Origin: Komagataeibacter saccharivorans
GTDB lineage: Bacteria > Pseudomonadota > Alphaproteobacteria > Acetobacterales > Acetobacteraceae
Length of the DNA: 34,872 nt
Direction: 5' to 3'
NCBI RefSeq assembly: GCF_003207825.1
Contig: NZ_NKTY01000028.1
Location: forward strand, 1-34,872
The notes beneath the pieces are model-generated. The model saw only the letters and a list, made by a program, of their open reading frames with translations, was not told where the DNA came from and did not search any database. Positions 224 through 26,705 of this stretch are shown here, piece after piece. Made by a program: the position numbers and the translations under genes. Each line of letters starts with the position of its first letter. The stretch's first letter is position 1.

Positions 224-262
224 TTCCTTCGTTTCATGACATCGTGGAGACCTGTGATAGTT

Positions 263-6634: not shown

Positions 6635-8056
6635 TTACTTCTGTTTCCTGTCCTGCGGGGCGCTGGTGTCAAATCCGCCCCCTATTGCCCTGTACATGTC
6701 AACCGATGCATCAAGGCTGGACAGAAGTGCTGTCGTATGCGCCAGTTCCGCCTGCTGCGCGAGTACCTGTGCGGAAAGCACATCCAGCCTGCTGGAATAA
6801 CCGTGTTCCAGCCGCAGCTGCGTCAGTTCCACGGTTTTTTCGGCGGCTGTTTCCTTGTCCCCGTCACCCTGTTCGCGCTCATGGGCATTGTTCTGTTCAA
6901 GCAGGGCGTCATGCACTTCCTTGAAGGCCGTGCGGATACTCTGCTTGTACAGGATGACCTGCTCGTTCTTCTCGGCTTTCGCCAGTTTGACGCCGCTTGC
7001 CGTTCTCCCGAAATCCATCACCGGCGCCGCCATTGATGCCGCCAGCGTCCATGACCGCGTGGTGGCGCGATAGAGGTTGTCGATGTCGATGTTGTTCACC
7101 CCCGCCAGACTGGCCAGCGAGATGGTGGGGAAATAGGCCGCGCGCGCAAAGCCGATATTGAAGTTGCTGGCGATCAGCGTCTGCTCATGCATGGCGATGT
7201 CGGGCCTGCGCTCCAGCAGGGAGGACGGGATTTCCGGCGGTGTCGGGATAGGGATTGTCAACGCGTCTATGTCCCTGCCCCGCTCCATTGCCTGCCCGAT
7301 GATCTGCTGGGGCGAGCGGCCCAGCATGACGGCCAGCGCGCTTTCCGCCTTGCCGCGCTGGTCCTCCACATCCGGGAGCGCAGCCTGTGCGGCATCACGC
7401 TGCTCGGTTACGTTCTGCACCACCAGCGCGTCCACTGCACCCACCTCATGCTGGCGCTGCACCAGGGCCAGCAGATCTGTCTGGGTCTGGATGGTCTGTT
7501 GCAGGATGTCGCGTTGCCGATCCAGCGCACGCAGGCTGAAATACAGCTTTGCGGTCGCGGCAGCAATAGACAGCCGGGCTGCCTCGTGACCATAACCCGC
7601 CGCCTTCACGCCCGCCTTTGCCGCTTTGCTCAGGCTGGCATTCTTGCCCCAGAAATCCGCTTCATAATTCAGCATGCCGCCGATGAAGCCAAGGTTGCTC
7701 ATCTTGTGCGCGACAGGCAGGTCGTCGTTCAGGTGCAGGCGGCCATAGGCATCTGATCCCGCAACCGAAATGGAGGGCAACTGGTTGGCGAAGGCATATT
7801 TGTACTGCGCGCGCGCCTGCTGAAGTTTCGCACCCGCCAGCGCAAGGTCGTCATTGTTTTTCAGCGCTTCCGCCACCAGCGCGTCCAGCACCGGATCACC
7901 ATAGCTGCGCCACCATTCGCCGCCATCTGGTACGGTGGCGGCCTGCTGCGTGCCCCATTTATCGGGCATGTGCATCTGTGGCCGATGATAGGTCGGCGCC
8001 AGCCATGCGCAACCTGCCAGCAGCGCGGGCAGCAGGAGGATCGGGGTGCGTTTCAT
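6635..8056 (-). CDS. Outer-membrane efflux lipoprotein, NodT/OprM type
   Basis: Outer-membrane channel of a tripartite RND pump, 473 residues. A signal peptide with lipobox LLAGC puts the lipidated cysteine at residue 16, followed by the family's W-x-x-P-x-Y start of the mature protein. The body shows two repeated coiled-coil OEP halves, with ALAGAKLQQARAQYKYAF and LERRPDIAMHEQTL, the latter the usual RPD motif at the start of the second half. It overlaps the permease stop by 4 bases (8053-8056), so it is the last gene of the leftward operon adaptor-permease-channel. The protein is complete and has normal length. Confidence 0.9.
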   Translation of the reverse strand: MKRTPILLLPALLAGCAWLAPTYHRPQMHMPDKWGTQQAATVPDGGEWWRSYGDPVLDALVAEALKNNDDLALAGAKLQQARAQYKYAFANQLPSISVAGSDAYGRLHLNDDLPVAHKMSNLGFIGGMLNYEADFWGKNASLSKAAKAGVKAAGYGHEAARLSIAAATAKLYFSLRALDRQRDILQQTIQTQTDLLALVQRQHEVGAVDALVVQNVTEQRDAAQAALPDVEDQRGKAESALAVMLGRSPQQIIGQAMERGRDIDALTIPIPTPPEIPSSLLERRPDIAMHEQTLIASNFNIGFARAAYFPTISLASLAGVNNIDIDNLYRATTRSWTLAASMAAPVMDFGRTASGVKLAKAEKNEQVILYKQSIRTAFKEVHDALLEQNNAHEREQGDGDKETAAEKTVELTQLRLEHGYSSRLDVLSAQVLAQQAELAHTTALLSSLDASVDMYRAIGGGFDTSAPQDRKQK

Positions 8057-11000
8057 CGGGTGGCTCCCTCAACCTGCGGCGATGGCGTTTCCTTCACCCG
8101 GAACCACAGCACGTACAGCGAAGGCAGGAAGATCAGCGTCAGCACTGTCGCCACGGCAAGCCCGCCCATGATGACATCGGCCATCGGGCCCCAGAACACG
8201 CTGGACGCAATGGGCAACATGCCAAGGATGGCGGCAACAGCGGTCAGCATGATGGGACGGAAGCGGATTTTGGCGGCATTCATCACTGCATCCCATTCCG
8301 ATTGCCCAAGGTCCTTCTCGATCTGGATCTGGTGCACCAGAATGACCGAATTACGGATGATCATGCCAATCAGCGCCACCAGTCCCAGCATGGCGATGAA
8401 CCCCATCGGGTGCTGGGTCAGGAACAGCGCGCCCACCACCCCGATCAGGCCGAAGGGAGCAACACTGATGACCAGCGCCAGACGCCTGAAGTCCTGCAAC
8501 TGGATCATCAGTACGCCCAGCATGACCAGGACCATGAGTGGCACGACGGCAATGACGGATTTCTGGGATTTCGCACTTTCCTCGACCGTGCCACCCACCG
8601 CGACATGATAGCCCGATGGAAGACCCGCGTTGAACGCCGCGATTTTCGGCGCCAGCGTGGCAACAGCCGTATCCGCCTGCACCCCGTCACGGAGCTGCGC
8701 CTGTATGGTCAGGGTCGGCAGCCGGTCACGCCGCCAGATCAGGGGATAATCCTCGACATAGGAGACGCTGGCCACGGTGGAAAGCGGCACCGTCTGGTCA
8801 TTGGGCAGGCGGATGTCAAGGTTGCGCAGGTCCTCGATCGACAGGCGCTGGGCGTGGTTGGCGCGCAGCACGACATCGACCAGATAGATGCTGTCGCGCA
8901 CCTGCGTCGCCGTAAGCCCGGTCACCGCCGAATTGATGGCCAGCGCAATCGCCCCGGATGACAGGCCCAGACGGTGCGCTTCATCCTGCCGCACGTCGAT
9001 CTTCAGCTTGCGCGCAGGGTCGCCCCAGTCGAAATTGACCATGTGCAACTGGTTGCTGTCGGCCATGATCTTCGCCACGCCATGCGCGTAATGCCAGACC
9101 CGGTCCGTGTCGCGGCCCGTCACGCGGTACTGCACCGGCCAGCCCACTGGCGGCCCGAGTTCCAGCGGGAACAGCCCATGCACCACATCAGGCATGTCGC
9201 GGCTTAACGCCACGTCCAGTCGCCTGCGCAGCCGGTCGCGCGCCACGGCACTTTTGGCCACGATAACGGTCTGGGTAAAGAAGTCGTTGGGAAGCTGCTC
9301 GTTAAGCGACAGGTAAAAGCGCACGGCCCCGCGCCCGATATAGGAACTCCAGTGGTCAATATCGGGATCATTGCGCAGGAGAGCGTCCAGTCGGTGCGAG
9401 ACATCCGCAGTCGCCCTGATCGACGCACCCTGCCGCAGCGACAGGTCAACCAGCAGTTCCGGCCGGTCGGATGCCGGGAAGAACTGCCGGGGTACCAGTG
9501 GCGAGAGCGCAATGGCCACGACCAGCGCCGCAAGGCTGGCCAGCACGGTCGCACGCGGCCGGCGCATGGTGAACAGCAGCGCACGGCTGAACACGCGCAG
9601 CAGCCGCCCTTCCGGCGGGGCATGGGGCGCTGCTGCCGGGCGCTGCTTCAGGATGGTCACGCCCACCAGCGGGGCCACCAGCACGGCCACGAACCATGAC
9701 GCGATCAGCGCCATGCCCACCACGGCAAAGAGCGAGAACGTGTATTCCCCCGCCACACTTTTCGCGAACCCGACCGGGATGAATCCCGCCACGGTCACAA
9801 GGGTTCCGGTCAGCATGGGGAACGCGGTCGAGACATAGGCATAGGTCGCAGCCCGCGTCAGGGTCCAGCCCTCCTCCAGCTTGCTGACCATGCTCTCCAC
9901 CGTAATCATGGCGTCATCGACCAGCAGGCCGAGGGCAATGATCAGCGCGCCGAGCGAGACGCGCTGCAGGTCGATGCCGAACAGCTTCATGCACACGAAC
10001 ACCACCGCCAGCACGAAGGGAATGCAGAACGCCACCACCGTCCCCGCGCGGCCACCGAGGCTAAGAAAGCTTATGCCCAGCACAATGGCGATGGCTTCAA
10101 ACAGGGCTTCGGTAAAATCGCCCACCGCGTCATGCACGACCTTGGGCTGGTTGGCGACCAGGTGCGCCTCGATCCCGATGGGCATGCGGGCATGCAGTTC
10201 GGCCATTTTCGCCGTGATGTTCTTTTCCAGTTCCAGCACGTTGCCACCGCTGCGCATGGACAGGGCCAGTCCGATCGCGTCCTGCCCGCCCACGCGGAAC
10301 ATGGTCTGCGGCGGGTCGGAATAGGTGCGGGTGATGGTGGCGATGTCGCCCAGCCGGACCTTGCGGCTGCCTGCATAGACCGTAACGTTGGCAATATCCG
10401 CCACCGACCCGAACTGCCCGGTCGGCTGGACCTGTATCTGCTCGCGCCCGGTATCGATCACGCCTGATGGCACCGTGGCGTTCTGCGCCAGCAGGGCGGC
10501 GGCGATCGTCGCCCCGTTTATACCCAGCCGGGCCAGGTGGTGGGTGGAGAAATCGACATAGATCTTCTCATCCTGCGCGCCGAGCGTATCGATCTTGGCG
10601 ACATCGGGCACATGCAGCAGTTCGTCGCGGACCGTCTCGACATAGTCGCGCAGGTCGCGATGGGAAAAGCCATCGGCGGTAAAGCCGTAGATGATGCCGT
10701 AGGTATCGCCGAACTCATCATCAAAGAACGGGCCGACCGTGCCCTGCGGCAACTGGGCCTTGATGTCGCCCACCTTCTTGCGCACCTGATACCAGATGTC
10801 AGGCACTTCCGCCTTGGGCGCGCCCGACAGCAGGTTGACGAAAATCGTGGTCTTGCCCGCCAGCGTATAGCTCTTGACGTAATCGAGGTCGGGCGTTTCC
10901 TGCAGCTTTTTTTCGATGCGCTCGGTCAGCTGATGGGTCGTTTCCTCCACCGAGGCTCCAGGCAGAAACGCCTCCACCACCATGGTCTTGACGGTAAAGG

Positions 11001-11157
11001 GCGGGTCTTCATTCCGGCCCAATCTGAAGTAGGACTGGATACCGGCCACGCCAATCAGGATCATGAAGAACAGGACCAGAGCGCGATGGCGGATGGACCA
11101 GTCGGACAGGTTTATGCCCCCCGGCGCGCGTGGCTCAGGGGCGGACATCGGCTTCAT
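8053..11157 (-). CDS. RND efflux permease, AcrB/HAE1-like
   Basis: Inner-membrane proton-driven pump subunit of 1034 residues. The first membrane segment is near residues 28-46 (ALVLFFMILIGVAGIQSYF), then a large periplasmic loop, then the membrane block with the proton-relay Asp pair at 414-415 (LLVDDAMITVE), a second periplasmic loop and a C-terminal membrane block containing GMIIRNSVILVHQ. This is the drug-type VDDA pattern and not the CzcA-type metal pattern. ATG 11157 and ATG 11148 are both possible; both overlap the adaptor's 3' end, giving tight coupling. Substrates are likely hydrophobic drugs or organic acids but cannot be read here. Confidence 0.9.
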   Translation of the reverse strand: MKPMSAPEPRAPGGINLSDWSIRHRALVLFFMILIGVAGIQSYFRLGRNEDPPFTVKTMVVEAFLPGASVEETTHQLTERIEKKLQETPDLDYVKSYTLAGKTTIFVNLLSGAPKAEVPDIWYQVRKKVGDIKAQLPQGTVGPFFDDEFGDTYGIIYGFTADGFSHRDLRDYVETVRDELLHVPDVAKIDTLGAQDEKIYVDFSTHHLARLGINGATIAAALLAQNATVPSGVIDTGREQIQVQPTGQFGSVADIANVTVYAGSRKVRLGDIATITRTYSDPPQTMFRVGGQDAIGLALSMRSGGNVLELEKNITAKMAELHARMPIGIEAHLVANQPKVVHDAVGDFTEALFEAIAIVLGISFLSLGGRAGTVVAFCIPFVLAVVFVCMKLFGIDLQRVSLGALIIALGLLVDDAMITVESMVSKLEEGWTLTRAATYAYVSTAFPMLTGTLVTVAGFIPVGFAKSVAGEYTFSLFAVVGMALIASWFVAVLVAPLVGVTILKQRPAAAPHAPPEGRLLRVFSRALLFTMRRPRATVLASLAALVVAIALSPLVPRQFFPASDRPELLVDLSLRQGASIRATADVSHRLDALLRNDPDIDHWSSYIGRGAVRFYLSLNEQLPNDFFTQTVIVAKSAVARDRLRRRLDVALSRDMPDVVHGLFPLELGPPVGWPVQYRVTGRDTDRVWHYAHGVAKIMADSNQLHMVNFDWGDPARKLKIDVRQDEAHRLGLSSGAIALAINSAVTGLTATQVRDSIYLVDVVLRANHAQRLSIEDLRNLDIRLPNDQTVPLSTVASVSYVEDYPLIWRRDRLPTLTIQAQLRDGVQADTAVATLAPKIAAFNAGLPSGYHVAVGGTVEESAKSQKSVIAVVPLMVLVMLGVLMIQLQDFRRLALVISVAPFGLIGVVGALFLTQHPMGFIAMLGLVALIGMIIRNSVILVHQIQIEKDLGQSEWDAVMNAAKIRFRPIMLTAVAAILGMLPIASSVFWGPMADVIMGGLAVATVLTLIFLPSLYVLWFRVKETPSPQVEGATR

Positions 11158-12226
11158 CCAGCAGGCTGACCTTTTCTTGCGGATACAGCGCCTGCACGCC
11201 TGCCGTCACCACCCGGTCCCCGGCATTCAGGCCGGATGCGATCGCCACGTCATCGGTGCCGTAGCGTGCGATGGTGACGGGGCGCTGGGATACGCGCTGC
11301 GTGTCGGGAGCCACGATCCAGACCGCAGGCTTGCCGTCCTGTGTCGTCAGGGCAGCGGGCGGCAGATGGACGGTTGGCGCTAATGGCACGGACAGATGTC
11401 CTGTCACCACTGCCCCCAGCGGCATCATGTCCCGCGTGGCGCGCAGCAGCGCCCTGGTATGATAGGTGCGGGTCAGCGGATCGGTATCGGGCGCGATTTC
11501 GTAGATCGCGGCGGGCGCGCAGACCACGGGCGCCGCATCAAGACATACCTTCATGGTCATGCCCACGGTTAAACGGGACTGCACGAGGGCCTCGGGCATG
11601 TCGAACTGTGCGTCCAGCCCGTCATTGGCCGCCATGCGCAACACCGGCTGGCCTGCGGCGACCACCTCGCCTGCTTCCACCAGCCGGTCGGTCACGATGC
11701 CGTCCTCCGGAGCCACAAGGCGGGTATAGCCAAGCTGTTCCTGCGCCACGCGCACCTGTGCCTGTGTGGCCTGCACCTGATCCTGCGCGGTTTTGTACCG
11801 GCGAACCGCATCATCATAATCATTGCGCGAAATCGCCTGCACCGGCAGCAGGGCTGCAGCGCGCTGTCTAAGGGGCGCAGCCTGTTCCAGCGCCGCCCGT
11901 GCCGTGGCGTTTTCCGCCAGCGCCGTGCGCAGGGTCTGCTGCGGCACCGTGTCATCCAGCCGTGCCAGCACATCCCCCGCATGCACGACGCTGCCTGCGG
12001 ACACAGTGCGTTCCACCACCTTGCCAGGCAGGCGGAAGGCGAGATTGATGGACTGATGGGCCGCGATCTGGCCTGTCACGACCTCCCCATTTGCATCGGG
12101 CGCGGGTTCGACAATGACGGAACGGACGGGCCGGACTTCCTCCACCGCCACCTTTTTATGGCACGCGGAGAGCAGAAGCAGCAGGCAGAGCAGGATCAGG
12201 CCCGGAGCACTACCCGCTTTTTTCAT
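11135..12226 (-). CDS. RND periplasmic adaptor lipoprotein (HlyD/AcrA-like)
   Basis: Membrane-fusion subunit linking the permease to the outer-membrane channel. From the ATG at 12226 the protein begins MKKAGSAPG, then a hydrophobic stretch ending LLLSAC, so the lipid-carrying cysteine is residue 22. An upstream in-frame ATG at 12355 would put 43 residues before the signal peptide and is rejected. The order is lipoyl half (FRLPGKVVERTVSAGSVVHA), a coiled-coil hairpin rich in Ala and Gln, second lipoyl half (YTRLVAPEDGIVTDRLVEAG) and beta-barrel. First gene of the leftward operon; its stop lies inside the permease gene start. Confidence 0.88.
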   Translation of the reverse strand: MKKAGSAPGLILLCLLLLLSACHKKVAVEEVRPVRSVIVEPAPDANGEVVTGQIAAHQSINLAFRLPGKVVERTVSAGSVVHAGDVLARLDDTVPQQTLRTALAENATARAALEQAAPLRQRAAALLPVQAISRNDYDDAVRRYKTAQDQVQATQAQVRVAQEQLGYTRLVAPEDGIVTDRLVEAGEVVAAGQPVLRMAANDGLDAQFDMPEALVQSRLTVGMTMKVCLDAAPVVCAPAAIYEIAPDTDPLTRTYHTRALLRATRDMMPLGAVVTGHLSVPLAPTVHLPPAALTTQDGKPAVWIVAPDTQRVSQRPVTIARYGTDDVAIASGLNAGDRVVTAGVQALYPQEKVSLLDEADVRP

Positions 12227-12464
12227 GACTGCCGCAGGGCACCGGTCTGGCGGGGCGCTGTCTTCCCTGTGCAGGGCCGGATAAAAAATGGTGGTCAGGA
12301 AGGATGAAGGCTGCACATGGCCCACGACCTCACTGCCAGTATGTCTGGTTTGCATGGATACCGACCACCCTCAGTCATTTCCAGAACCGGCGGCAGGACG
12401 CAGCCGTTATGGATTACATAGACGAGACCGTATCGTATTGCAACGACGGAAACTTCGAAGCATC

Positions 12465-15439: not shown

Positions 15440-16216
15440 TCACATGAGAAAAGCCATTTGCTTTGCCGACATCTCTCCCTGCCGCACCAGTTCAAGTCCA
15501 GCCACGAATGTCGCAGCAACAGTCGCTCGGCGACTGATGGCTCCAACCGGCTCAGCTGGAGCTCTCGCGGGCATGCAGTCTTTCCATATATTCCGGGCTG
15601 TACCTTCTCCTATTTTCTTGCGGACAAGGGCCAGTGCATCTGTCACACGCCAGTATGTGGGCAGGTTGATCCGATAAACAGGAACGGACGTCTCAACCCG
15701 TGCCAGTTCCCGCTCCAGCACACCAAGGCAGGCTTCCATCAGACTGAAATACGTCCCCTGCCTTCCTGAAACGCCGCTCTCCACCACTGCCTTGCCCCGC
15801 GCAAAAACCAACACGCCAAGTTGTGGCTTCGCCTCCAGCCAGTCTGCCGCCGCGCGCATCCGCAGCAGTTCGTCGATCTGATCCACCGTCCGGCGCGCTT
15901 CGTTCTCGGCTGCGTGCTTTTCCACCTGGGTGGCGAACAGCAGCCGCGAGCGCAGGAAAACCAGCCGGGCAATCCAGATCACCCAGTCCGCGCGCTGCAT
16001 GAGCGGTGTCGTTTGCGCCAGCCGTTCCGCCTCCTCGACAAACTGGTCTGCCAGATCCGCAATGGACAGGACGCCCATATCCAGACGCTGCCGTTCCGCC
16101 AGATCCAGCAGCAGGTCAAGCGGCCCGTCAAACCCCTCAACATGGAACTCCGGCACCACCGGACGCGGCAGCCGACGCGGCGGATCACCCCATGCTTCGT
16201 CCTCATCAGGCGACAT
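15440..16216 (-). CDS. scpA: ScpA-family kleisin (segregation and condensation protein A)
   Basis: Kleisin subunit of bacterial SMC complexes, which bridge SMC head domains during DNA compaction. The conserved start FHVEGFDGPLDLLLDLAERQ (24-43) is diagnostic, followed by the IADLADQFVEEAERL helix, the FLRSRLLF segment and a C-terminal winged-helix-like part ending RRATVAATFVAGLELVRQGE. At 258 residues it is near normal length, but the end MSAKQMAFLM lacks the usual few extra residues, and IS5 relic sequence follows, so slight truncation is possible. Its start overlaps the upstream gene's stop by 11 bases. No scpB or smc lies nearby, so it either serves the host SMC or has a replicon-specific role. 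Confidence 0.88.
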   Translation of the reverse strand: MSPDEDEAWGDPPRRLPRPVVPEFHVEGFDGPLDLLLDLAERQRLDMGVLSIADLADQFVEEAERLAQTTPLMQRADWVIWIARLVFLRSRLLFATQVEKHAAENEARRTVDQIDELLRMRAAADWLEAKPQLGVLVFARGKAVVESGVSGRQGTYFSLMEACLGVLERELARVETSVPVYRINLPTYWRVTDALALVRKKIGEGTARNIWKDCMPARAPAEPVGAISRRATVAATFVAGLELVRQGEMSAKQMAFLM

Positions 16217-17543
16217 CGGCGGTCTCCCCGGCGTCTGCCGGCACGTAATGGGGCCGGATGCCGAAAACCAGTTCCGGCCAGTCCGCCCGCACCCGCTCCA
16301 GCGCCTGCCAGGGCGTCCACTCCGCCGACCAGAAGCTGTAGACCAGCCGGGCGCTGCGGCGGACGCGCTGATCGCGGACGGCTTCGACCTTCACCCGGCG
16401 CAACGGCAGCGACGTGCCCCAATGCGCCTGCAGCCAAGCTGCCGCAACGCGGGAGTCCGACCCGGCTTCCAGAACATCGCCAGGAACCGGCACCAGCCGG
16501 TGCAGGTCAAAGACACAAGCCGACGTACCCGCCGCCTGATGCTGCAGGGCGATCCGATGCAGGCGCTCGGATGCCTGCCGCAGCAGCCGGGCCAGAGTTA
16601 CCGCCTGCGCTCCCATGCCCGCCATCGGTGCCAACAGACGGGCCTGTTCGTAGTTGAAATCTACCTGCCAGGGAACGATCCCAGAGCCCTGCGCCGCCAC
16701 CCGGAACCGGGCCACTGCGTCCACCGGACCGCTCACCGTAACCGTCGTCCGGATCCAGTCCGGGGCCAACATCGCCGTGCACCGACGCGCCGCCGTCCCG
16801 ACTGAGGACTCTGATGGGCGCGCGGACTTTTTCCGGCGCGCCCGTTGGGCCGGGCGATCAGAACGCCCCAACGCCCGGTCCAGCACGAACCGGACCCCGG
16901 GCACCGAGAGCGGGTCACCGACGGTGCCATGCGCGTCGATCCCCCGGAACGCCGCCCCCCACCGCAACTGCGCGGCGTCCCGCCAGGCAGCCCAATGCCG
17001 CACCGGACAGACCGCCGGATCCCGGCGCCGCCGCAGCCGACGCAGATGGTGGCGCCCGGACCGGGGCCGCAGCAGGGCGACGGTCATCCCGTCCGTCGTG
17101 TCGGTGATGTCGTCGATGGTCAGCCGGGCCAGTGCCTCGGCGCCGATGCCCAGCGTGGCTGCCAGCAGCAGCAGGGCCCGATCGCGCAGGCCGGGCAGGT
17201 CGGGCCCGCAGCGGCGCGCGGCGGCCAGCAGGGAAGCCGCATCGACCCCGGCCCCGGTCCGGCGCACCCGGGTGGCGGGCAGAGCGACATCAAGCCCCTC
17301 GCCATTGGCGGCGGACCATGCCGTCAGCGCCGCGCGATCCACCACCAGGCTCTGCCGCGGTCGTCCGGCCTTCGCCCGTGCTTCCAGCCACGCTGTCACT
17401 ACGGCCTGGCCGACTGGAAAACAGCAATCGGCTGTCTGGGTCCCGACGAAAGCGCGCCACGACGCTGCGTAGGCCCGTGCCGTGGCAGGCGAGAGGCCGG
17501 TCGGCGGCCGGGCCGCCTGCAGCAGTCGGCCGGTCTCAACCAT
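16206..17543 (-). CDS. Degenerate tyrosine-recombinase fold fused to Api92-like ferredoxin-fold domain
   Basis: Large protein of 445 residues from ATG 17543 (an in-frame ATG at 17603 would add 20 residues; no ribosome site decides). Numbered from the 17543 start, residues 15-80 resemble the SAM-like core-binding domain (LSPATARAYAASWRAF). Residues 118-150 match the start of a recombinase catalytic domain (LRDRALLLLAATLGIGAEAL then ARLTIDDI). The catalytic Arg of the usual LRISEL/FRRSEL motif is replaced by Gly, and no HxxR, second His or Tyr follows, so it should not cut DNA. From about residue 265 a different domain begins: VTVSGPVDAVARF, CVFDLHRLVPVPGDVL, HWGTS and FWSAEWTPWQALERVRADWP, the pattern of Api92/DUF1281 ferredoxin-like proteins. 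It is co-operonic with scpA. The role is unknown; a DNA-binding adaptor for segregation is my inference. Confidence 0.6.
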   Translation of the reverse strand: MVETGRLLQAARPPTGLSPATARAYAASWRAFVGTQTADCCFPVGQAVVTAWLEARAKAGRPRQSLVVDRAALTAWSAANGEGLDVALPATRVRRTGAGVDAASLLAAARRCGPDLPGLRDRALLLLAATLGIGAEALARLTIDDITDTTDGMTVALLRPRSGRHHLRRLRRRRDPAVCPVRHWAAWRDAAQLRWGAAFRGIDAHGTVGDPLSVPGVRFVLDRALGRSDRPAQRARRKKSARPSESSVGTAARRCTAMLAPDWIRTTVTVSGPVDAVARFRVAAQGSGIVPWQVDFNYEQARLLAPMAGMGAQAVTLARLLRQASERLHRIALQHQAAGTSACVFDLHRLVPVPGDVLEAGSDSRVAAAWLQAHWGTSLPLRRVKVEAVRDQRVRRSARLVYSFWSAEWTPWQALERVRADWPELVFGIRPHYVPADAGETADVA

Positions 17544-17812
17544 CCTGACCGGATCCCCGGCTTTCCGCCCTGAAATCCCTGCGGACCGACACCGGGCAGG
17601 CATCCAAAGCGGGCAGCCTGCCCACCCTCAGCAGAAAAACGCGCCTCCCGACATCGGCCCGATTAAGGCGGTTATATCTCATACAATACGTCGTATCATG
17701 TTAACGGGTTCTGGAGAACAAAAAATCGCCTGATTGATCCTCAAAGGCGCGGTTTTCCAGACTTTCTAGCCTCGCCGCTTCCCGCCGGGCAAAATCCGCC
17801 CGAACAGAAGTT

Positions 17813-17842
17813 TACTTCCGATAAGTTATCTTGTCGGAAGTA
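17813..17842. repeat. 30-bp near-perfect palindrome upstream of the recombinase-like/scpA operon
   Basis: Arms TACTTCCGATAAG (17813-17825) and CTTGTCGGAAGTA (17830-17842) flank a 4-base centre TTAT. Twelve of 13 arm positions pair. A related half-site TTATCGAAAG lies at 18924-18933, beyond the IS630 insertion and originally only some 40 bp away. Arm length is like that of tyrosine-recombinase or dimeric-regulator sites. The surrounding 17604-17866 has no gene; a small palindrome ATACG-T-CGTAT lies at 17686-17696. Confidence 0.65.
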
Positions 17843-17866: not shown

Positions 17867-18919
17867 GAGCATAATCCGGTCAGTCTGGTTCATATCCAGC
17901 GGCGGTGAAGCACGCGGCAGCCTGGCGATGAGAGATATCGTCAATTGCTCCACAGACGGTATTTTGAAGAGCGTCGAGGGTTCGCGGTGCCACCCGTCTG
18001 ATCCACGCCTTCATTTTGGCGAAGATGTTTTCGATCGGGTTGAAATCAGGACTGTAGGGCGGCAGGAACAACAACCTGGCGCCGACTGCCTCCACAGCCT
18101 CGCGGGCAACGGCTCCTTTATGGGCGGGCAGATTGTCCAGAATGACGACGTCTCCCTGCGACAGGGTTGGAACGAGCACCTTGCGGGTATAGGCGGCAAA
18201 CCATTCGCCGGTCATTGGGCCGTCCAGCATCATCGGTGCTGTCATGCCGGAGAGGCGCAGCCCGCCGATGAACGTCGTGGTTTTCCAGTGCCCGTGGGGC
18301 ACGGACATTCGACAGCGCGTGCCCCGTTGTGACCGCCCCCGCAGGCGGGCCATCTTCGTTGAGACGGCTGTTTCGTCGATGAAGATCAGACGGGCCGGAT
18401 CAAGGTCAGGCTGACTGTCAAACCAGGCCTCGCGCCGCTGTGCGACGTCGGGCCGTGTCTGCTCGCTGGCGTGCGCCGTTTTTTTTGATGGTCATGTCGT
18501 GACGGTCGAGACAGCGCCAGATCGTGCTCGGCGCAAAGCGGACACCGTGTTCTGCTGCAAGTGTCTCCGCCAGTTCGACAAGGGAAATATCGGCCTTTGT
18601 TTCAATCGCGGCCAGCAGGAAGGCTGACCATGCTTCAATCCGGTGAGAACGGCGATCACCGCCCTGTTTAAGCGCATGGTCACGACCGCTGGCCTGCCAC
18701 TCAGCAACCCAGCGGATAACGCTCGACGAAGACACACCAAAACGAACCGCCGCCGCACGACGGGTCATGCCAGAGGCAACAGCCGCAATCGTGCGGCGGC
18801 GAAGGTCAGCAGACAGGGCTCGGGTCATACGGGCCGGCCTCCATACCGGCACATAGTATGAATCAGATTTCGACCAGTATGGGAATCTTAAAATGAACCT
18901 ATTAGATCGGATTATGCTC
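17867..18919 (-). mobile_element. IS630-family insertion sequence, complete
   Basis: The element is 1053 bp, bounded by TA on both sides (17865-17866 and 18920-18921), the target duplicated by IS630/Tc1-mariner transposons. The ends are inverted repeats: GAGCATAATCCGGTC on the left (17867-17881) and, read inward on the other strand from 18919, GAGCATAATCCGATC, 14 of 15 identical, with a further GGTTCAT match inside. One transposase in two frames fills it. It sits between the 30-bp palindrome and the TTAATAAGGA repeats. Confidence 0.9.
17880..18828 (-). CDS. IS630-family transposase, two frames joined by slippage at A8
   Basis: The first frame (18828 to a stop at 18418) carries the helix-turn-helix DNA-binding half, with MTRRAAAVRFGVSSSSVIRW and the WRCLDRHDMTIKK end. 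The second, in the -1 frame and ending at 17880, carries the DDE catalytic half: IFIDETA (first Asp), VVILDNLPAHKG (second Asp) and PPYSPDFNPIENIFAKMK (Glu). The frames overlap around eight A residues (complement of 18479-18486). A -1 shift there reads on as KKTAHASEQTRPDVAQRREAW into IFIDETA, so a single protein of about 316 residues results. IS630 relatives are known to use such shifts. Both halves look intact. Confidence 0.85.
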
Positions 18920-18923
18920 TAAT

Positions 18924-19018
18924 TTATCGAAAGGCCCTTAATAAGGAGAATGTCAGGTTTGCCGCGATCCTCTCCGATTCAGGTTCCCCTTAATCAGGAG
19001 AAAAATGATCCTTATTAA
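18924..19018. repeat. Iterated TTAATAAGGA-type repeats beside the IS630 insertion
   Basis: CCTTAATAAGGAGAA (18936-18950) and CCTTAATCAGGAGAA (18988-19002) differ at one base and are 52 bp apart. TCCTTATTAA (19009-19018) is the same core inverted. TTATCGAAAG (18924-18933) matches 9 of 10 bases of the palindrome arm upstream. They could be binding sites, or iterons, of a local DNA-binding protein. The remaining gap to 19264 has no gene; an 8-bp hairpin CCCTGTCC/GGACAGGG (19182-19202) has no T-run. Confidence 0.5.
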
Positions 19019-19264
19019 TGCGAAAAAGTACCTTTAATTCGGTTACGCATCATCAGTGCTTCCAGGCAGCAGCCTCCCCCAGCCCGCTATGCTTGGATGA
19101 CGCCACTGCAAAAAACTCTCTGGACTGAATCGCGTTGCTTTCCTCTCCCCACGGGGCGCCGTCGACTTGTCCCGCCAAGCCCCCTGTCCATCCCGGACAG
19201 GGCTGAAGAAAACACTCATTCTGGTCCGTTATGGCGATCTCCTGACAGCTTTACTCCGTCATGG

Positions 19265-19292
19265 TTGAGCGCAAAACAGCATATGCGATAAT
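19265..19292 (+). promoter_or_regulatory. Sigma-70-like promoter before the hydrolase pseudogene
   Basis: TTGAGC (19265-19270) and GATAAT (19287-19292) are spaced by 16 bp and lie 44 bases before the ATG at 19337. It is a good match by eye to -35 and -10 consensus. Confidence 0.45.
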
Positions 19293-19336
19293 CTGACCTG
19301 CCCCTCGCCCGTCCCATAACCGAAAGAGAAACGTCA

Positions 19337-20125
19337 ATGATCCGTTTGCGTCCGCTCGTCATTGCCGCATTGCCGTTCCTTATTTCCGGGCATGCACGTG
19401 CCCGCATGGTCGACAGGCCAGTTTCGTAGACGTTCGAGGGCGCGCGTTATGACTGCGTCCTAATCTACGACGACACGACTGCCGCGCGGCGGCCGGGTCT
19501 TCTGATGGTGCCCGCATGGTTCATGCGTCAACGAGAGCGTGATCCGCAAGGCCGAGGACATCGCAGGGCAACGCTACGTGATCCTGCTGACGGATATGTA
19601 TGCCGCCGCGATCCGCCCGAAAGACGCCGCTGGCGCACGCGATGCCATATCCCCCTTCTGCTCGCTGACCGTTCCATGATGCGCCGTCGCGTGGCCTTTG
19701 CCCTGGCACAGTTCAGGTCGTTTGTATCGCAGGCACCAATCGACACGACCCATCTTGCGCCATCGGTTATTGCTTCGGCGGCGCGGCCGTGCTGGATCTC
19801 GCGCGGTCCGGTCCGGTCCGGTCCGGAGATCGCAGCCGTGGTCGCGTTCCACGGCAATCTCTCGACGGATAATCCCGCCCTGGCACATGCGATCCGGGCA
19901 CGGGTTCTTGCCATGAACGGGGCGGATGATACCTCGACCAGCCCCCAGTTTGACGGCTTCCTGACCGAAATGTACGGCAGCCCTGCCCCGTGGCAGTTTC
20001 TCGCCATCGGCCATGCTGTCCATTGCTTCACCGAAAAGGAGGCCGTGGCCTCATCCGGCCTATGCCGGTACGATGCGCAGGCAGATGCCTGGTCAATGCA
20101 TATGGCTCGACAAAAGTTTCTCCTC
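19337..20125 (+). pseudogene. Dienelactone hydrolase family protein, broken
   Basis: A secreted or periplasmic alpha/beta hydrolase can be followed through several frames. It begins MIRLRPLVIAALPFLISG (signal-like), then meets TAG at 19427-19429. YDCVLIYDD and LLMVPAW follow, the frame shifts to NESVIRKAEDIAGQRYVILL, and another shift leads to RRRVAFALAQF. The nucleophile motif GYCFGGAAVLDLARSG lies in one frame (about 19767-19815), while EIAAVVAFHGNL, VLAMNGADDT and the catalytic-His segment AIGHAVHCFTEKEA are in another. With a stop and at least three frame changes it cannot be functional. The end near 20125 is approximate; the frame runs on to 20308 with unrelated sequence. Confidence 0.82.
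19805..19824. repeat. (GGTCC)x4 tandem pentamer inside the hydrolase pseudogene
   Basis: Four perfect GGTCC units sit exactly where the reading frame changes between LARSG and EIAAVVAFHG. Adding one unit or losing two would restore the frame, so slipped replication here explains one of the frameshifts. Confidence 0.85.
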
Positions 20126-20342
20126 GCATTGACGATCCGGGATGAATGTCCCGCTTCGGTCCAGATTGCGAGGAAGAGCGAACCAGATCCGCACCATTTA
20201 TCTACTGTTGGGAATATCTCGCCTTCATCAGAAAACGGCGGATATGATGCCCGTCTTAGTGAACATTATGGAATGCTGCGGGCCACTCTGGGTTCATACG
20301 CAGCATAATCCGTCACGCCGAAGGATCGATAGATTAGACTTC

Positions 20343-20397
20343 TATCAATCATAAAAATGCGATAGAATGATTGATATAGCCTTGGGGTATCAATCAT
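20343..20397. promoter_or_regulatory. Three decamer sites overlapping the fic start
   Basis: TATCAATCAT occurs at 20343-20352 and 20388-20397, and inverted (ATGATTGATA) at 20367-20376. The last copy overlaps the fic ATG at 20396. The two direct copies are 45 bp apart and the region is AT-rich. The layout suggests an operator where a bound protein would block transcription or translation of fic, perhaps the protein's own C-terminal helix-turn-helix. Confidence 0.6.
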
Positions 20398-21496
20398 GCT
20401 TTGGAATTGGCAGCTTCCGGACTGGCCACATTTTCACTTCGAGAAAAGCTGTCTGCGAGACGCCGAAACGGAGTTCCTGAAAGGTTCAGGCGTGGTCGTC
20501 GGTGCGATGCAGCATCTGGACAAAGACGCCAATCAGCATCTTGTCGTTCAACTCATGTCGCAAGAAACGGTCGAGAGCTCCGCTATTGAAGGCGAGGTGC
20601 TTGATCGGGCCAGTGTGCAATCGTCGATTGCGCGACACCTTGGCTTCGCCACAGACAGGCGACGTTCTACGCCAACTGAGGCTGGGGCCGCTGAATTGAT
20701 GGCGGACCTCTATCGGCATTATGCGGCCCCTTTGACTGACCAGAGTCTCTTTGAGTGGCATGCCATGCTCATGAACGGTCGGCGAGATCTGGATGTCATT
20801 GGCAGGTATCGGACGCATGCCGAGGCAATGCAGATTATCTCCGGCCCCATCCATGCGCCGCACATCCACTTCGAAGCCCCGCCATCTCGAAGCGTCCCTT
20901 CGGAGATGGCGCAGTTTATCGGCTGGTTTAACAGGACCGCCCCAAGCGGGATCGACCCCTTGCCCGCGATTGAGCGGGCTGCGATTGCGCATCTGTGGTT
21001 TGAGACCATTCATCCCTTTGAAGATGGAAATGGTCGCATCGGACGGGCTATTGCTGAAAAAGCATTGGCGCAAACCCTCGCAGCCCCAACGCTGACGGCG
21101 TTGGCCGCGACCATCAATACATACAAGAAAGCGTATTATCTCGAACTGCATCGGGCCAGCAAGACGAACCAGATAGAGAACTGGATGGTCTGGTTCTCTC
21201 AGGTCGTGTTGGAGGCGCAATCCCGCACGCTTCGGAACATCCGGTTTCTTATTGAGAAAACGCGGTTTCTGGATCGCTTACGCGGAAAACTGAACATTCG
21301 TCAGGAGAAGGCCCTGCTTCGAATGCTGGCAGAAGGGCCTGATGGTTTTCAAGGTGGCCTGAGTGCCCAGAATTATCGGTCGATTACAGGGGCGACGTCT
21401 GCCACGGCGACGCGTGATCTGGTTGATCTGGTGGCGCTTGATGCTCTTATTCGGACAGGAGAAAACCGGTATGCCCGGTATTCTCTTCGTCTCTGA
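20396..21496 (+). CDS. Fic family AMP-transferase, class II with N-terminal inhibitory helix
   Basis: Fic enzymes transfer AMP or a similar group from a nucleotide to hydroxyl side chains of target proteins. The complete active-site motif HPFEDGNGRIGR is at residues 206-217, with catalytic His206. The autoinhibitory S-x-x-x-E-G motif is at 61-66 (SSAIEG), which makes it class II, with inhibition in the same chain. The N-terminus (WNWQLPDWPHFHFE) is the DUF4172-type lead-in common in bacterial Fic proteins of this size. The C-terminal 70 residues (RQEKALLRMLAEGPDGF then SITGATSATATRDLVDL) look like a winged helix. At 366 residues it appears complete. No antitoxin gene is adjacent, in line with class II. 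Confidence 0.9.
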   Translation: MLWNWQLPDWPHFHFEKSCLRDAETEFLKGSGVVVGAMQHLDKDANQHLVVQLMSQETVESSAIEGEVLDRASVQSSIARHLGFATDRRRSTPTEAGAAELMADLYRHYAAPLTDQSLFEWHAMLMNGRRDLDVIGRYRTHAEAMQIISGPIHAPHIHFEAPPSRSVPSEMAQFIGWFNRTAPSGIDPLPAIERAAIAHLWFETIHPFEDGNGRIGRAIAEKALAQTLAAPTLTALAATINTYKKAYYLELHRASKTNQIENWMVWFSQVVLEAQSRTLRNIRFLIEKTRFLDRLRGKLNIRQEKALLRMLAEGPDGFQGGLSAQNYRSITGATSATATRDLVDLVALDALIRTGENRYARYSLRL

Positions 21497-21874: not shown

Positions 21875-23320
21875 ATGCTGAGCGACATCCGCATCCTCGG
21901 CTCCAGCAGGCGCGCGCAGGCCGCGCTGCACGCCCGCGTTGACCATTTGACACGACAGCGTCTGGCCGAGACACAGGACCCGACGCGCTGGCGCGAAATC
22001 CTCTCGACCGCGCGGTTCACCCCGCCCCTGCCCCTGCTTCTGGCGGGCATCGAATTGCCGGACGGGACCTATTCCCCGGATACGCCCCTCGCCCAGGGCG
22101 TGCCGTATGCGTCGGCTGCCCAGCAGATGGCTCAGGACCATGTGGCCGATGTCCCATCGGGGTTCGAACTGGCTGTCGGACTGGAAATCGACGACGGTAC
22201 GCCCAGCTTCCTGGCCTGGTTCCGGCCGATCCAGCCCGTAGGAGCCTGTCCCAAGACGTCAGACGCATCGCCTCCTGCGCCCGTCGGCCAGCCGGCTGCT
22301 GCCGTCGCGCAATGGTTTTCCGCCGTCTCGGCACAGCCCGTCCCCGAACATGATGGCCGCCTGGCCACGGCCCGTCAGGCGGCCGATGCCTATATGCACC
22401 GCAGCAAGGCCGAAAACACGCTGCGCACCTATCGCGCCGCCGTGCGGTCCTGGTGTCGCTGGGCTGCCGGTCATGCCCTGCCCGCCCTGCCGGCCCGCGG
22501 CGAGGATGTTGCCGCCTATCTGGCCGACATGGCGCTGCAGGGCCGCAGGACCAGCACCATCGACCTGCATCGGGCCGCCCTGCGCTACCTGCATCACCTG
22601 GCGCAGATTGCCGTACCCACCGCCCACCCGATGGTGACCGCAACGCTTGCCGGCATCCGGCGGGAGGCAAAGGAGACCCTGCCCCGCCAGAAAACCGCGC
22701 TCACCTGGGACAGGCTGGTCCGGGTCGTCGAAGCCATCAGTCCACATGATCTGGTCGGTGCGCGGGACCGGGCCATTCTCCTGATCGGTTTTGCTGGCGC
22801 GTTCCGGCGCTCCGAACTTGCCGCACTGAAGGTGGACGACATCACGGTGGACGAGGATGGCATGCAGATCCGGCTGGGCCGGTCCAAGGGTGATCCCCAG
22901 CGCAAGGGTACTCTGATCGGCATCCCGCGGGGCCTGACCCGGAACTGCCCGGTTCTGGCATACGAGACCTGGCTCCGGCAGGCCGGGATCACGGAAGGTC
23001 CGGTCTTCCGGCGCATCTGGTCCGCGCGGGGCCACAGGGCGGGAGTCACTCCCGTCGGAGCCCCGCCCAGGATCGGGCCGCACGCCCTGTCGGACCGGGC
23101 GGTCACGGACATCATCCGTAAGCGATGCGGCGACACCCACCTCGAAGGGGACTTTGGCGGGCACAGCCTGCGCCGCGGGGCCATCACCACGGGGGCGAAA
23201 GACGGGTATGATCTCCTGGAACTGAAGCGCTTCTCGCGGCACAAAAGCCTTCAGGTCGTCGAGACCTATATCGACGCGGCCAGCATCAAGGCCCGGCACC
23301 CGGGAAGATCGAGATTCTGA
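21875..23320 (+). CDS. Tyrosine recombinase with long N-terminal extension
   Basis: Site-specific DNA recombinase of 481 residues. The core-binding domain begins near 168 (AADAYMHRSKAENTLRTYRA) and the catalytic domain near 275. All catalytic residues are visible: Arg311 (AFRRSEL), Lys338 (GRSKGD), His430 and Arg433 (GGHSLRRG), His456 (SRHKSL) and nucleophile Tyr465 (VVETYID). The first 160 residues form an extension I do not recognise (PLPLLLAGIELPDGTYSPDT), about twice the usual N-terminal length for XerD relatives. It resembles the N-terminal half of the degenerate protein at 16206-17543, of which it could be the active partner. The start is the first ATG, with no strong ribosome site. Confidence 0.88.
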   Translation: MLSDIRILGSSRRAQAALHARVDHLTRQRLAETQDPTRWREILSTARFTPPLPLLLAGIELPDGTYSPDTPLAQGVPYASAAQQMAQDHVADVPSGFELAVGLEIDDGTPSFLAWFRPIQPVGACPKTSDASPPAPVGQPAAAVAQWFSAVSAQPVPEHDGRLATARQAADAYMHRSKAENTLRTYRAAVRSWCRWAAGHALPALPARGEDVAAYLADMALQGRRTSTIDLHRAALRYLHHLAQIAVPTAHPMVTATLAGIRREAKETLPRQKTALTWDRLVRVVEAISPHDLVGARDRAILLIGFAGAFRRSELAALKVDDITVDEDGMQIRLGRSKGDPQRKGTLIGIPRGLTRNCPVLAYETWLRQAGITEGPVFRRIWSARGHRAGVTPVGAPPRIGPHALSDRAVTDIIRKRCGDTHLEGDFGGHSLRRGAITTGAKDGYDLLELKRFSRHKSLQVVETYIDAASIKARHPGRSRF

Positions 23321-24583: not shown

Positions 24584-25495
24584 ATGATGACAGAGTCCCT
24601 GTGCATTGCTGCAATCAGTCCCCTTCGCCAGCGCCTGCTTGATGACATGGCGGTGCGGCGGTTCTCCCGGGAGACGCAGCGCAATTACCTTCGCGATGTC
24701 GGCCGTTTCGCCACGTTTCTAGGCCGCTCACCCCACACGGCAACAGTCGAGGATGTGCGCCAGTTTCAGATTGCGCAGAACGCGGCTGGCATGCCGACAC
24801 CGACCATGAACGCCATCGTGTCGGCGCTGTGGTTTTTCTTCACCCAGACGCTCGACCGCCCCGACCTTGCACGCAAGTTGGTCCGGGTAGCGCAGCCCCG
24901 CAACCTGCCCGTCGTGCTGAGCCGTGATGAAGTTGCCCGTCTGCTCAACGCGACCGTATGCCTCAAGCATCAGGCCGCCCTGTCGGTCGCCTATGGGGCA
25001 GGCCTGCGGGTGGCCGAGGTCGCCGCTCTCAAGATCAGTGATATCGACAGCGAGCGCATGCTGCTCAGGGTCGAACGGGGCAAAGGGGGACGATATCGCA
25101 ACGCCATGCTTCCGGCAGACCTTCTGCCCCTGCTGCGGGAGTGGTGGAAGGCCGGACGCCAGCAGGGCGTGATGCATTCGGGTGGCTGGCTTTTTCCCGG
25201 GCAGGACACCATGAGGCCCATCAGCACACGGCAGCTCCATCGCGTGGTTGTCGATGCCGCGCGGGCTGCTTCGATCACCAGACGTGTGGGGCCTCATACC
25301 CTGCGGCATAGCTTTGCCACGCACCTGCTTGAGGATGGTGTCGATGTCCGCGTGATCCAGGTCCTGCTGGGTCATTCCCGCCTGGAGACCACGGCCCTTT
25401 ATACAAAGGTTGCGACACGGACCGTGCGGGCCGTTATCAGTCCGCTCGACAGGCTGGGCATGCTGACGACGGCGCAGGCAAGGCCCGACGGCTGA
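24584..25495 (+). CDS. Tyrosine recombinase of the IS91-type unit (XerD-like)
   Basis: Complete site-specific recombinase of 303 residues. The catalytic set is present: Arg142 (AGLRVAEV), Lys167 (ERGKGGR), His238 and Arg241 (PHTLRHS), His264 (LLGHSRLETT) and Tyr273 (ALYTKV). AAGGAG at 24574-24579 precedes two possible starts, 24584 and 24587. It is 19 bases before the HUH transposase gene and surely cotranscribed. In such elements it may resolve or assist transposition intermediates; this is inference. Confidence 0.88.
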   Translation: MMTESLCIAAISPLRQRLLDDMAVRRFSRETQRNYLRDVGRFATFLGRSPHTATVEDVRQFQIAQNAAGMPTPTMNAIVSALWFFFTQTLDRPDLARKLVRVAQPRNLPVVLSRDEVARLLNATVCLKHQAALSVAYGAGLRVAEVAALKISDIDSERMLLRVERGKGGRYRNAMLPADLLPLLREWWKAGRQQGVMHSGGWLFPGQDTMRPISTRQLHRVVVDAARAASITRRVGPHTLRHSFATHLLEDGVDVRVIQVLLGHSRLETTALYTKVATRTVRAVISPLDRLGMLTTAQARPDG

Positions 25496-25514
25496 TCCCG
25501 GAGCAGGGGCGGTC

Positions 25515-26705
25515 ATGTCCGCCTCGCTCGCACTGGGGGACATCTTCCGGGCTGCCGGTCCTGCCTGGCGGGCAGCCCATATCGGCCGTCTCCCCCTGCA
25601 GCAGCTCAAGGTCATGTCGGCGATCGAACATTGTCGCACCGCAGCCCTTGGTGGCCATGTCGCGGCCTGTGGGGACTGCGGACACTGGCGCATTGCCTAT
25701 AACAGTTGTCGCAACCGCCATTGTCCGCGCTGCCAGGGGAACGCCGCACGGACATGGCTGGCCGAACGCGAGGCCGATCTGCTGCCGGTCGGGTATTTCC
25801 ATGTCGTCTTCACCTTGCCGGCGCGGATCGCCGACATCGCGCTCCAGAACAAGGCCGTTCTCTACGCCCTGCTGTTCCAGGCCGCCTCGGAGACGATGAT
25901 GACGATCGCCGCCGATCCCCGGCATCTGGGTGCCCGCATCGGCATCACCGCCGTGCTGCACAGCTGGGGGTCGGCGCTGACCCACCATCCCCATGTGCAC
26001 ATGATCGTGCCGGGTGGCGGTCTCTCGCCCGATGGCCAGCGCTGGATCTCGTCGCGCCCGGCCTTCCTCCTGCCCGTTCGCGTGCTGGGCAAGCTGTTCC
26101 GCCGCCTGTTCCTGACCCGGCTGCGCGCACTTTTCGATGCCGACCGGCTGGTCTTCCGGGGCCATCTTGCCCCTCTGGCAGAGCGTCGTGCCTTTCTGCG
26201 GTATCTGGCTCCTGTGCGCAGCAGGCGCTGGGTCGTCTACGCCAAACCGCCTTTTGCCGGTCCCAAAGCGGTGCTGGCCTACCTGTCGCGCTATACCCAC
26301 CGCGTCGCTATCTCGAACCGCCGCCTCCTGGCGTTCAACGAAAACGGTGTGACGTTCCGCTACAAGGACTACCGGCGGGACACGGCCCACCAGCAGCAGG
26401 TCATGACACTCGCCACGGATGAGTTCATCCGCCGCTTCATGCTGCATGTCCTGCCACGGGGATTTCATCGCATCCGCCATTATGGCCTGCTGGCCAGTTC
26501 CAGCCGCAAGGCCAGCCTCGCCCGGGTGCGGGAATTGCTGAATGTCATATCCACACCAGCGCCAGAAGTCCCGGAAGCCGAACCGGTCACGCCACCGCCG
26601 TGCCCATGCTGTGGTGGTCCGATGGTCGTCATCCAGATCCTTCCCCGATGGTGCCAGCCTCGAGGGCCGCCACAGGCGAGTGATCCAACCAAGGGATCAC
26701 CATGA
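25515..26705 (+). CDS. IS91-family rolling-circle transposase
   Basis: HUH endonuclease that nicks single strands and drives one-ended rolling-circle transposition. Residues 52-73 form the N-terminal zinc finger (CGDC, then CRNRHCPRC). The metal-binding HVH is at 160-162 in HHPHVHMIVPGGG. The paired tyrosines are Y256 and Y260 in AYLSRYTHRVAIS, matching the Y2 spacing of IS91. The C-terminus has a second Cys cluster, PPCPCCGG. The ribosome site GGAGCAGGGG precedes the start. It looks full length (396 residues) and intact. Confidence 0.9.
   Translation: MSASLALGDIFRAAGPAWRAAHIGRLPLQQLKVMSAIEHCRTAALGGHVAACGDCGHWRIAYNSCRNRHCPRCQGNAARTWLAEREADLLPVGYFHVVFTLPARIADIALQNKAVLYALLFQAASETMMTIAADPRHLGARIGITAVLHSWGSALTHHPHVHMIVPGGGLSPDGQRWISSRPAFLLPVRVLGKLFRRLFLTRLRALFDADRLVFRGHLAPLAERRAFLRYLAPVRSRRWVVYAKPPFAGPKAVLAYLSRYTHRVAISNRRLLAFNENGVTFRYKDYRRDTAHQQQVMTLATDEFIRRFMLHVLPRGFHRIRHYGLLASSSRKASLARVRELLNVISTPAPEVPEAEPVTPPPCPCCGGPMVVIQILPRWCQPRGPPQASDPTKGSP

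Follow-up and report, generated by a model that had tools for sequence, protein, structure and literature searches.

In this study, we examined a pair of overlapping genes on the reverse strand of a 34,872-bp stretch of Komagataeibacter saccharivorans DNA (the window), which is the entire contig C42 of a genome of 3.35 Mb in 107 contigs. The first gene encodes a fusion of a catalytically dead tyrosine-recombinase-like half and an Api92-like half, and the second encodes an ScpA-like kleisin. We demonstrate that the pair derives from an operon that is conserved as three genes, encoding a tyrosine recombinase, an Api92-like protein and an ScpA-like kleisin, and that a 28-bp palindrome with the layout of a dif site lies upstream of it. 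We lean, if only slightly, towards the view that this operon is a replicon-specific, Xer/dif-like resolution module that is coupled, via an Api92-like adaptor, to a plasmid-encoded kleisin engaging host Smc. Judged from sequence, multimer resolution at the dif-like site appears to be the better-supported core of this proposal, ahead of the loading of host Smc.

The fusion and its kleisin partner

Both open reading frames (ORFs) lie where a first-pass annotation, made by a model from the sequence alone, had placed them. The fusion gene (16206..17543, reverse strand) probably encodes 445 amino acids; the longest ORF begins at 17603, and the likely start is its second Met, which matches the annotated start in the Komagataeibacter plasmid pKOB2. 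Its stop overlaps the start of the 258-aa ScpA-like gene (15440..16216, reverse strand), as the first pass had observed, and the overlap measures 11 nt. Residues 1-90 of the recombinase half (17274..17543, reverse strand) have the core-binding (SAM-like) DNA-binding domain fold of tyrosine recombinases. Residues 91-215 (16899..17273, reverse strand) are a remnant of the catalytic domain, modelled with low confidence, in which Gly stands for the first Arg and both HxxR and Tyr are missing. With G, R, R and W at the R, H, R and Y columns, the fusion lacks the catalytic residues of an active tyrosine recombinase, and the initial impression of a dead recombinase half was therefore correct. AlphaFold confidence is low over residues 133-261 (the fusion model was built from 63 alignment rows, and that of the ScpA-like protein from 42). 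The dead half is under purifying selection: computed on 15 fusions, median dN/dS is 0.149 for residues 1-215 (104 pairs), as against 0.349 for the linker and a value of 0.212, again higher than that of the dead half, for the Api92-like half (105 pairs each).

The C-terminal half (residues 263-445; 16209..16757, reverse strand) had been likened to Api92/DUF1281, a likeness that fold tentatively and sequence weakly support: its top-scoring solved fold is Api92/DUF1281 (PDB 2ijr, tied with 2nzc), with which it has in common a short motif around PVP...WGT. Sequence searches used alignments of 53 of 74 distinct Api92-like sequences (A1) and 40 of 66 distinct ScpA-like ones (A2). None of the 53 Api92-like members matched Api92/DUF1281_C (PF18406) in Pfam at E<=1, and a PDB sequence search with the Api92-like profile returned nothing at that threshold. 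Pfam and NCBIfam gave no family for the window's Api92-like half or for a consensus sequence, with scattered matches in 1-3 of the 53 members, and PHROGs likewise gave no family, its best hit (7.3e-4) being to a family matching 3 of the 53. Unlike Api92 itself, the Api92-like part sits in a recombinase-kleisin operon. Among the best 80 of 112 loci in a survey of named organisms, the nearest named relative of this half is in Komagataeibacter diospyri (90% identity).

That the second gene encodes an ScpA-like kleisin, as had been proposed, is supported by a profile of 40 sequences (host ScpA included), which matches the solved ScpA 3w6j at 5.8e-22; at E<=0.01, Pfam SMC_ScpA matches 38 of these 40 aligned members, again including host ScpA. 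The window protein aligns with host ScpA over nearly its full length, with identities of 44% in the N region, 38% in the middle and 30% in the C region. In these respects it resembles the kleisin of the host Smc-ScpAB condensin, yet its gene lies outside the scpAB locus, in an operon without smc, and it scores far below the cut-off for the NCBIfam ScpA equivalog (51.5 bits versus 234; host ScpA scores 96.4). The host genome has one open frame with both SMC_N ends. The first-pass statement that scpB is not nearby stands for the window, where none adjoins scpA and the genome's only ScpB match falls on contig C57, so that the window does not hold a canonical scpAB locus; it does not extend to all relatives, since a few (4 of 126 loci, two of them Gluconobacter and Acetobacter plasmids) have an scpB paralogue upstream on the same strand. 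These paralogues, 5' of the operonic recombinase, are at L048:8042-8566, L049:5809-6345, L078:4236-4862 and L099:7915-8556.

Conservation of the three-gene operon

Because contig C31 of the same genome carries the three genes separately, we regard the window fusion as the derived form. This second set lies on one strand and comprises a 288-aa recombinase, a separate Api92-like gene and an ScpA-like gene; the recombinase has R, HxxR and Y, and its catalytic Lys is absent. The C31 module is at L010:3871-6276, with neighbours resembling adenine deaminase, thiC, tonB and exbB. The two-gene operon of the first-pass annotation is thus a real pair, but not a two-gene novelty: it derives from a three-gene module, and among the 113 loci that could be scored the module's recombinase is intact in 71.

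The locus table underlying these counts has 126 rows, one per distinct Api92-like sequence, with scores <100 excluded; some rows are of the same species as other rows, and there were overlapping copies of genomes before the reduction to one row per sequence. Neighbourhood conservation, which the first pass had put forward as decisive for the pair, was upheld in this survey of homologues, as scpA is the very next gene in 103 of the 123 loci where >=800 bp of downstream sequence was available. The Api92-like part is present in 45 of 200 Acetobacteraceae genomes, this one included, at 74 places of which 69 were read (67 fetched and two in this genome), five short ones being left out. A search of 385 genomes of the class gave, besides the window's own, one clear match and one weak one. 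Among 72,556 plasmid records, 50 from seven Acetobacteraceae genera carry the Api92-like gene, and the phage records gave no match to it at E<=0.01.

Two other loci deserve mention. Locus L238, in genome G550 of another family, has a recombinase and an Api92-like gene, with scpA not detected, and, at 9277, a palindrome matching at 11/11 whose outer arms are those of the window site. Contig C47 of the present genome (L013:7398-8486) encodes a solo recombinase of the same family, with no Api92-like or ScpA-like gene detected in the stretch. GmtY of the gamma-mobile trio, also a tyrosine recombinase, gave a weak match (NCBIfam NF040693; 19.6 bits versus a cut-off of 340) to a solo recombinase elsewhere in the genome, but none to the window fusion or the C31 operonic recombinase, and GmtY has other partner genes.

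A dif-like site upstream of the operon

Alignment of the spacer between the fusion and a divergent recombinase gene in nine relatives revealed a 28-bp palindrome, ACTTCCGACAA-GATAAC-TTATCGGAAGT, which in the window lies at 17814..17841 (reverse strand), 270 bp upstream of the likely fusion start. Its 11-6-11 layout is that of dif sites, and it lies beside recombinase genes, in the manner of a Xer/dif-type resolution system; a specific DNA site had been no more than guessed at in the first pass. The 28-mer is exact in the window, carries one change in L131, and did not occur in 100 shuffles. Allowing <=3 mismatches, 16 of 19 Komagataeibacter genomes contain it, at 20 places in all, and the reversed control gave none. 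Four of these genomes have two such places; in G135, the one of the four that was checked, a separate operon copy accompanies each place.

Similar sites accompany the operon beyond this lineage. An open scan for 11-bp palindromes with a 6-8-bp gap, <=900 bp upstream of the operonic recombinase, returned 83 windows versus 6.8 expected from shuffles, a count in which overlapping spacers are taken apart, so that one site can count twice. A narrower pattern (GAYAA-N6/7-TTRTC type, arms >=8 of 11), written after the open scan and from the same loci, detects a site no further than 1.5 kb away in 57 of 108 loci; taken together, all loci span 1.38 Mb and contain 67 such sites, against 9 for the reversed pattern. 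When 20 whole genomes were searched for the exact core with a 7-bp gap, 13 of them yielded a total of 20 places, 11 of which adjoin an operon; the control yielded 1.

The sites differ between modules in a manner that follows the state of the recombinase. Outer arm letters vary, with 35 distinct arm pairs among 62 sites. At the 37 sites within 2 kb of an intact operonic recombinase, the inner arms are equal in 32 and the spacer is 7 bp in 33 and 6 bp in 4; at the 25 within 2 kb of a degenerate one, the inner arms are unequal in 24 (GACAA versus GATAA in 23) and the spacer is 6 bp in 24. This is as expected if two proteins hold the arms at degenerate loci and one does so at intact loci.

Loss and retention of catalysis

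The window encodes a second, divergent tyrosine recombinase of 481 aa (21875..23320, forward strand), in which all six catalytic residues (R, K, H, R, H, Y) are intact, as in an active enzyme, and which matches Pfam Phage_integrase at 44.4 bits (cut-off 27.1). It lies ~4 kb from the dif-like site in the window and 135 bp from it in pKOB1 and pKOB2 (about 135 bp in the relatives read). The intervening DNA (17880..21496), which is outside the module, holds IS630-type genes (17880-18852), a dienelactone-hydrolase-like gene (19505-20308) and a Fic/DUF4172 gene (20396-21496). Since the Fic-containing intervening DNA is also present, minus the IS630 genes, in Komagataeibacter xylinus pB, the window's divergent recombinase was probably displaced by insertions. 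A K. rhaeticus record, p9b3, has the Fic gene, a recombinase and a ketopantoate reductase, but no operon. Catalysis is thus not lost from the locus, because an intact divergent recombinase adjoins the site in several relatives and lies ~4 kb off here.

Among the 126 loci, the operonic recombinase could be scored in 113, is absent in 7 and is out of view in 6; 71 of those scored keep R, H, R and Y and 42 do not, the latter "degenerate" class including fragments, frameshifted copies and single-residue cases (e.g. L091, L093, L122, L126 and L167). Recombinases were sorted with family models that had been built on some of the very loci to be sorted, and the intact or degenerate state was scored from residues. 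That operonic recombinases are generally dead was considered and dropped, 71 of 113 being intact.

The divergent recombinases form their own clade (13 rows, SH-aLRT 99), and some copies are broken frames (L118, L138, L152 and L193). Where >=2.5 kb upstream was in view, a divergent recombinase of the intact type was found at 24 of 38 degenerate versus 4 of 63 intact operonic loci (Fisher p 8.6e-10). One locus counted as without a divergent gene, L054, has one ~15 kb off; the count was left unchanged because intact loci were not extended likewise. The recombinase tree, a quick one without bootstraps and with a long-branch warning, has five changes between dead and intact states and two large, separate dead clades of 9 and 12 rows; it was built without slices <180 residues and retained two of 13 near-identical fusions and one of a set of near-identical divergent copies. 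With so few events, and with five independent pairs giving a sign test that is not significant, the association of a dead operonic recombinase with a divergent one is suggestive, not proven.

Replicon setting

A plasmid setting had been suspected from the outset, and the 50 plasmid records with an Api92-like gene agree with it. Matches covering 41-69% of an 11.5-kb window region were found on seven Komagataeibacter plasmids, 159-309 kb in size, and the Api92-like and ScpA-like genes are both found on the same nine Komagataeibacter plasmids. A single Api92-like place occurs in 41 of the 50 records, and in carrier strains it is common for each large plasmid to have one module. In Roseomonas mucosa TT14, the Api92-like gene is on six plasmids of 45-204 kb, at least five of them with an scpA match, and no Api92-like match was found on the 396-kb pTT14-1. 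It is on three plasmids of 85-204 kb in Acidisoma PAMC 29798 and absent from a 13-kb one, on the 259- and 174-kb plasmids of Komagataeibacter oboediens NCIB 8034 and absent from the 35-kb pKOB4, and on four plasmids of Lichenicola cladoniae and absent from a 43-kb one. ParA or Rep genes lie near the module in some plasmids, with rep or par genes in view at 6 of 15 annotated regions of named organisms. No ParA-type ATPase or centromere-binding protein was seen when the proteins encoded by the window and C31 operons were scanned against Pfam, and so neither of these operons is itself a parABS system.

Further gene arrangements were seen at individual loci. In a Lichenicola plasmid, a gene annotated with a DnaB-like helicase domain (L045:8233-9075) precedes the dead recombinase, and a homologue lies upstream in L117:1557-2840. 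In some Roseomonas plasmids, a VapC-like gene (L047:9353-9922 and L200:6353-6922) occupies the usual place of the operonic recombinase, with a divergent recombinase adjoining. Elsewhere in the window, a tyrosine recombinase followed by an IS91-type (Y2) transposase at 24584-26705 has close copies on Acetobacter plasmids, and the ordinary cargo at 236-3993, 6635-12355 and 28312-33919 consists of hydantoinase A/B genes and two outer-membrane efflux sets, one with an AcrB-type pump and the other with an HlyD-type protein.

Discussion

We propose that the module serves replicon maintenance for Acetobacteraceae plasmids, with some copies chromosomal. A tyrosine recombinase would resolve plasmid multimers by acting at a private dif-like site next to the operon. 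In most relatives, a single intact recombinase may do this at a symmetric site; in the lineage of the window, the operonic recombinase would have lost catalysis and been retained as a site-binding subunit fused to the Api92-like adaptor, with catalysis presumably supplied by the divergent recombinase at 21875-23320. On this proposal, the ScpA-like kleisin, presumably co-translated, would pair with host Smc and host ScpB (or with plasmid ScpB where present), and the Api92-like part would act as a bridge between the kleisin and the recombinase bound to DNA. The kleisin could, through this adaptor, tie Smc loading or unloading to the site, such that sister plasmids are individualised as dimers are resolved.

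A precedent for acting on Smc exists, since in B. subtilis Smc-ScpAB is reportedly unloaded by XerD (Karaboja 2021, as cited in PMC8669397 and PMC12322038). There as well, an Xer-type recombinase reportedly acts on an SMC complex at specific sites, but on the chromosome, whereas here the kleisin is co-encoded and contact with Smc is predicted. The module likewise resembles XerCD/dif, XerCD/cer and Cre/loxP of P1 in combining a tyrosine recombinase with a 28-29-bp palindromic core site with 11-bp arms, and it is found on plasmids, sometimes near rep or par genes, with one site per operon copy where checked. It differs from all three in that its recombinase shares an operon with an scpA paralogue and an Api92-like gene and, in the lineage of the window, in that the operonic recombinase is dead and fused while the divergent one is intact. 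The site and recombinase are of a known kind; what appears to be new is that they are coupled to an scpA paralogue and an Api92-like gene, and that a dead, fused recombinase accompanies an intact divergent one. Among the matches listed in our search of titles and abstracts of the open literature, none describes either feature.

Taking the proposal further, each large replicon might have its own kleisin with which to address host Smc, and the recombinase-bound site might serve for the loading or unloading of a hybrid Smc complex, so that multimer resolution is coupled to SMC action through a dedicated adaptor; in the window's lineage, the operonic recombinase would have become a purely structural address tag. 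We offer this extension tentatively, as a possibility that we would not expect to hold in full.

Several observations weigh against the resolution module that we favour, in addition to the sign test above. Regarding the site, 51 of 108 loci have no pattern site within 1.5 kb, and the exact core is missing from 7 of the 20 module-bearing genomes. Nine of the 20 core places have no module gene in the fetched stretch (~5 kb on each side, two being shorter near contig ends), and five of these nine match at >=9 of 11 arm positions. The pattern finds no site at the chromosomal copy of this genome (C31) or its kin L111-L116, in all of which the catalytic Lys column is not Lys. Furthermore, 17 of the 25 degenerate-locus sites have one identical arm pair, shared by Komagataeibacter and Novacetimonas, so independent cases of the degenerate-type site are few. 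Regarding the operon, 20 of 123 loci have no adjoining scpA, and on plasmid pTT14-4 an IS6 transposase gene is next after the Api92-like gene; nine of the 50 plasmid records have 2-3 Api92-like places, and some plasmids of carrier strains have no Api92-like gene. Regarding the kleisin, the window protein scores 20.6 bits with Pfam SMC_ScpA, under the cut-off of 24.6, and fold searches with its AlphaFold model found no ScpA among the matches, although the latter result says little because the kleisin was modelled alone.

Orphan sites may exist. The possible ones, with arms matching at 9-11 of 11 positions, are L239:1232, L244:5031, L245:5029, L246:5077 and L247:5059.

Given that tyrosine recombinases often integrate elements, the recombinase could instead be the integrase of a mobile element or integrative plasmid, with the 28-bp palindrome as its attachment site and scpA and the Api92-like gene as passengers. 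The patchy distribution in the family (45 of 200 genomes), a copy on a 3.5-Mb contig in one Komagataeibacter genome and the possible orphan sites in other genera are in keeping with this. We nonetheless consider an integrase unlikely, because 12 of the 16 site-bearing Komagataeibacter genomes (19 scanned, <=3 mismatches) have one site only and hence no second site to serve as attB. The other four have two places, and G135, the one of them checked, has an operon copy at each; with that check confined to G135, no unexplained chromosomal attB was identified in the 19 genomes. Nor do passengers readily account for scpA adjacency being kept in 103 of 123 loci.

It is also conceivable that the kleisin is a decoy, a competitor of host ScpA or of an anti-plasmid complex of the SMC type (Wadjet/MksBEFG), and shields the plasmid in this way. 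SMC complexes are reported to act against plasmids, and the match to host ScpA is best in the N region and falls off towards the middle and C regions. We give a decoy little credence, as it leaves the conserved recombinase, site and gene overlap unexplained, and a few modules have an scpB paralogue, as would be expected of a working complex. Equally doubtful, in our estimation, is the site being an operator at which the dead half represses a divergent promoter pair, with the module autoregulated and not recombining. The position of the site between divergent genes in the Komagataeibacter lineage would suit an operator, but sites of the 11-6/7-11 type are also found at 37 intact operonic recombinases, and 11-6-11 is the layout of dif sites. 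Finally, that the fusion is a decaying pseudogene kept only through its overlap with scpA is scarcely credible, for while catalysis is gone and residues 133-261 are modelled with low confidence, the dead half has a lower median dN/dS than the Api92-like half (0.149, 104 pairs from 15 fusions) and dead forms persist in two large, separate clades of the quick tree (9 and 12 rows, under its long-branch warning).

We know of no dedicated kleisin for XerD-dependent unloading of Smc-ScpAB. If our proposal of a resolution module coupled to a kleisin is correct, it would tie an Xer-type recombinase and its site to an SMC kleisin in a natural genetic arrangement, with the parts encoded next to one another and compact enough for reconstitution in vitro, and the removal of Smc complexes by XerD could be studied with a dedicated partner. 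Given 35 distinct arm pairs among 62 sites, such modules could also explain how multi-plasmid strains of the Acetobacteraceae keep their large plasmids apart.

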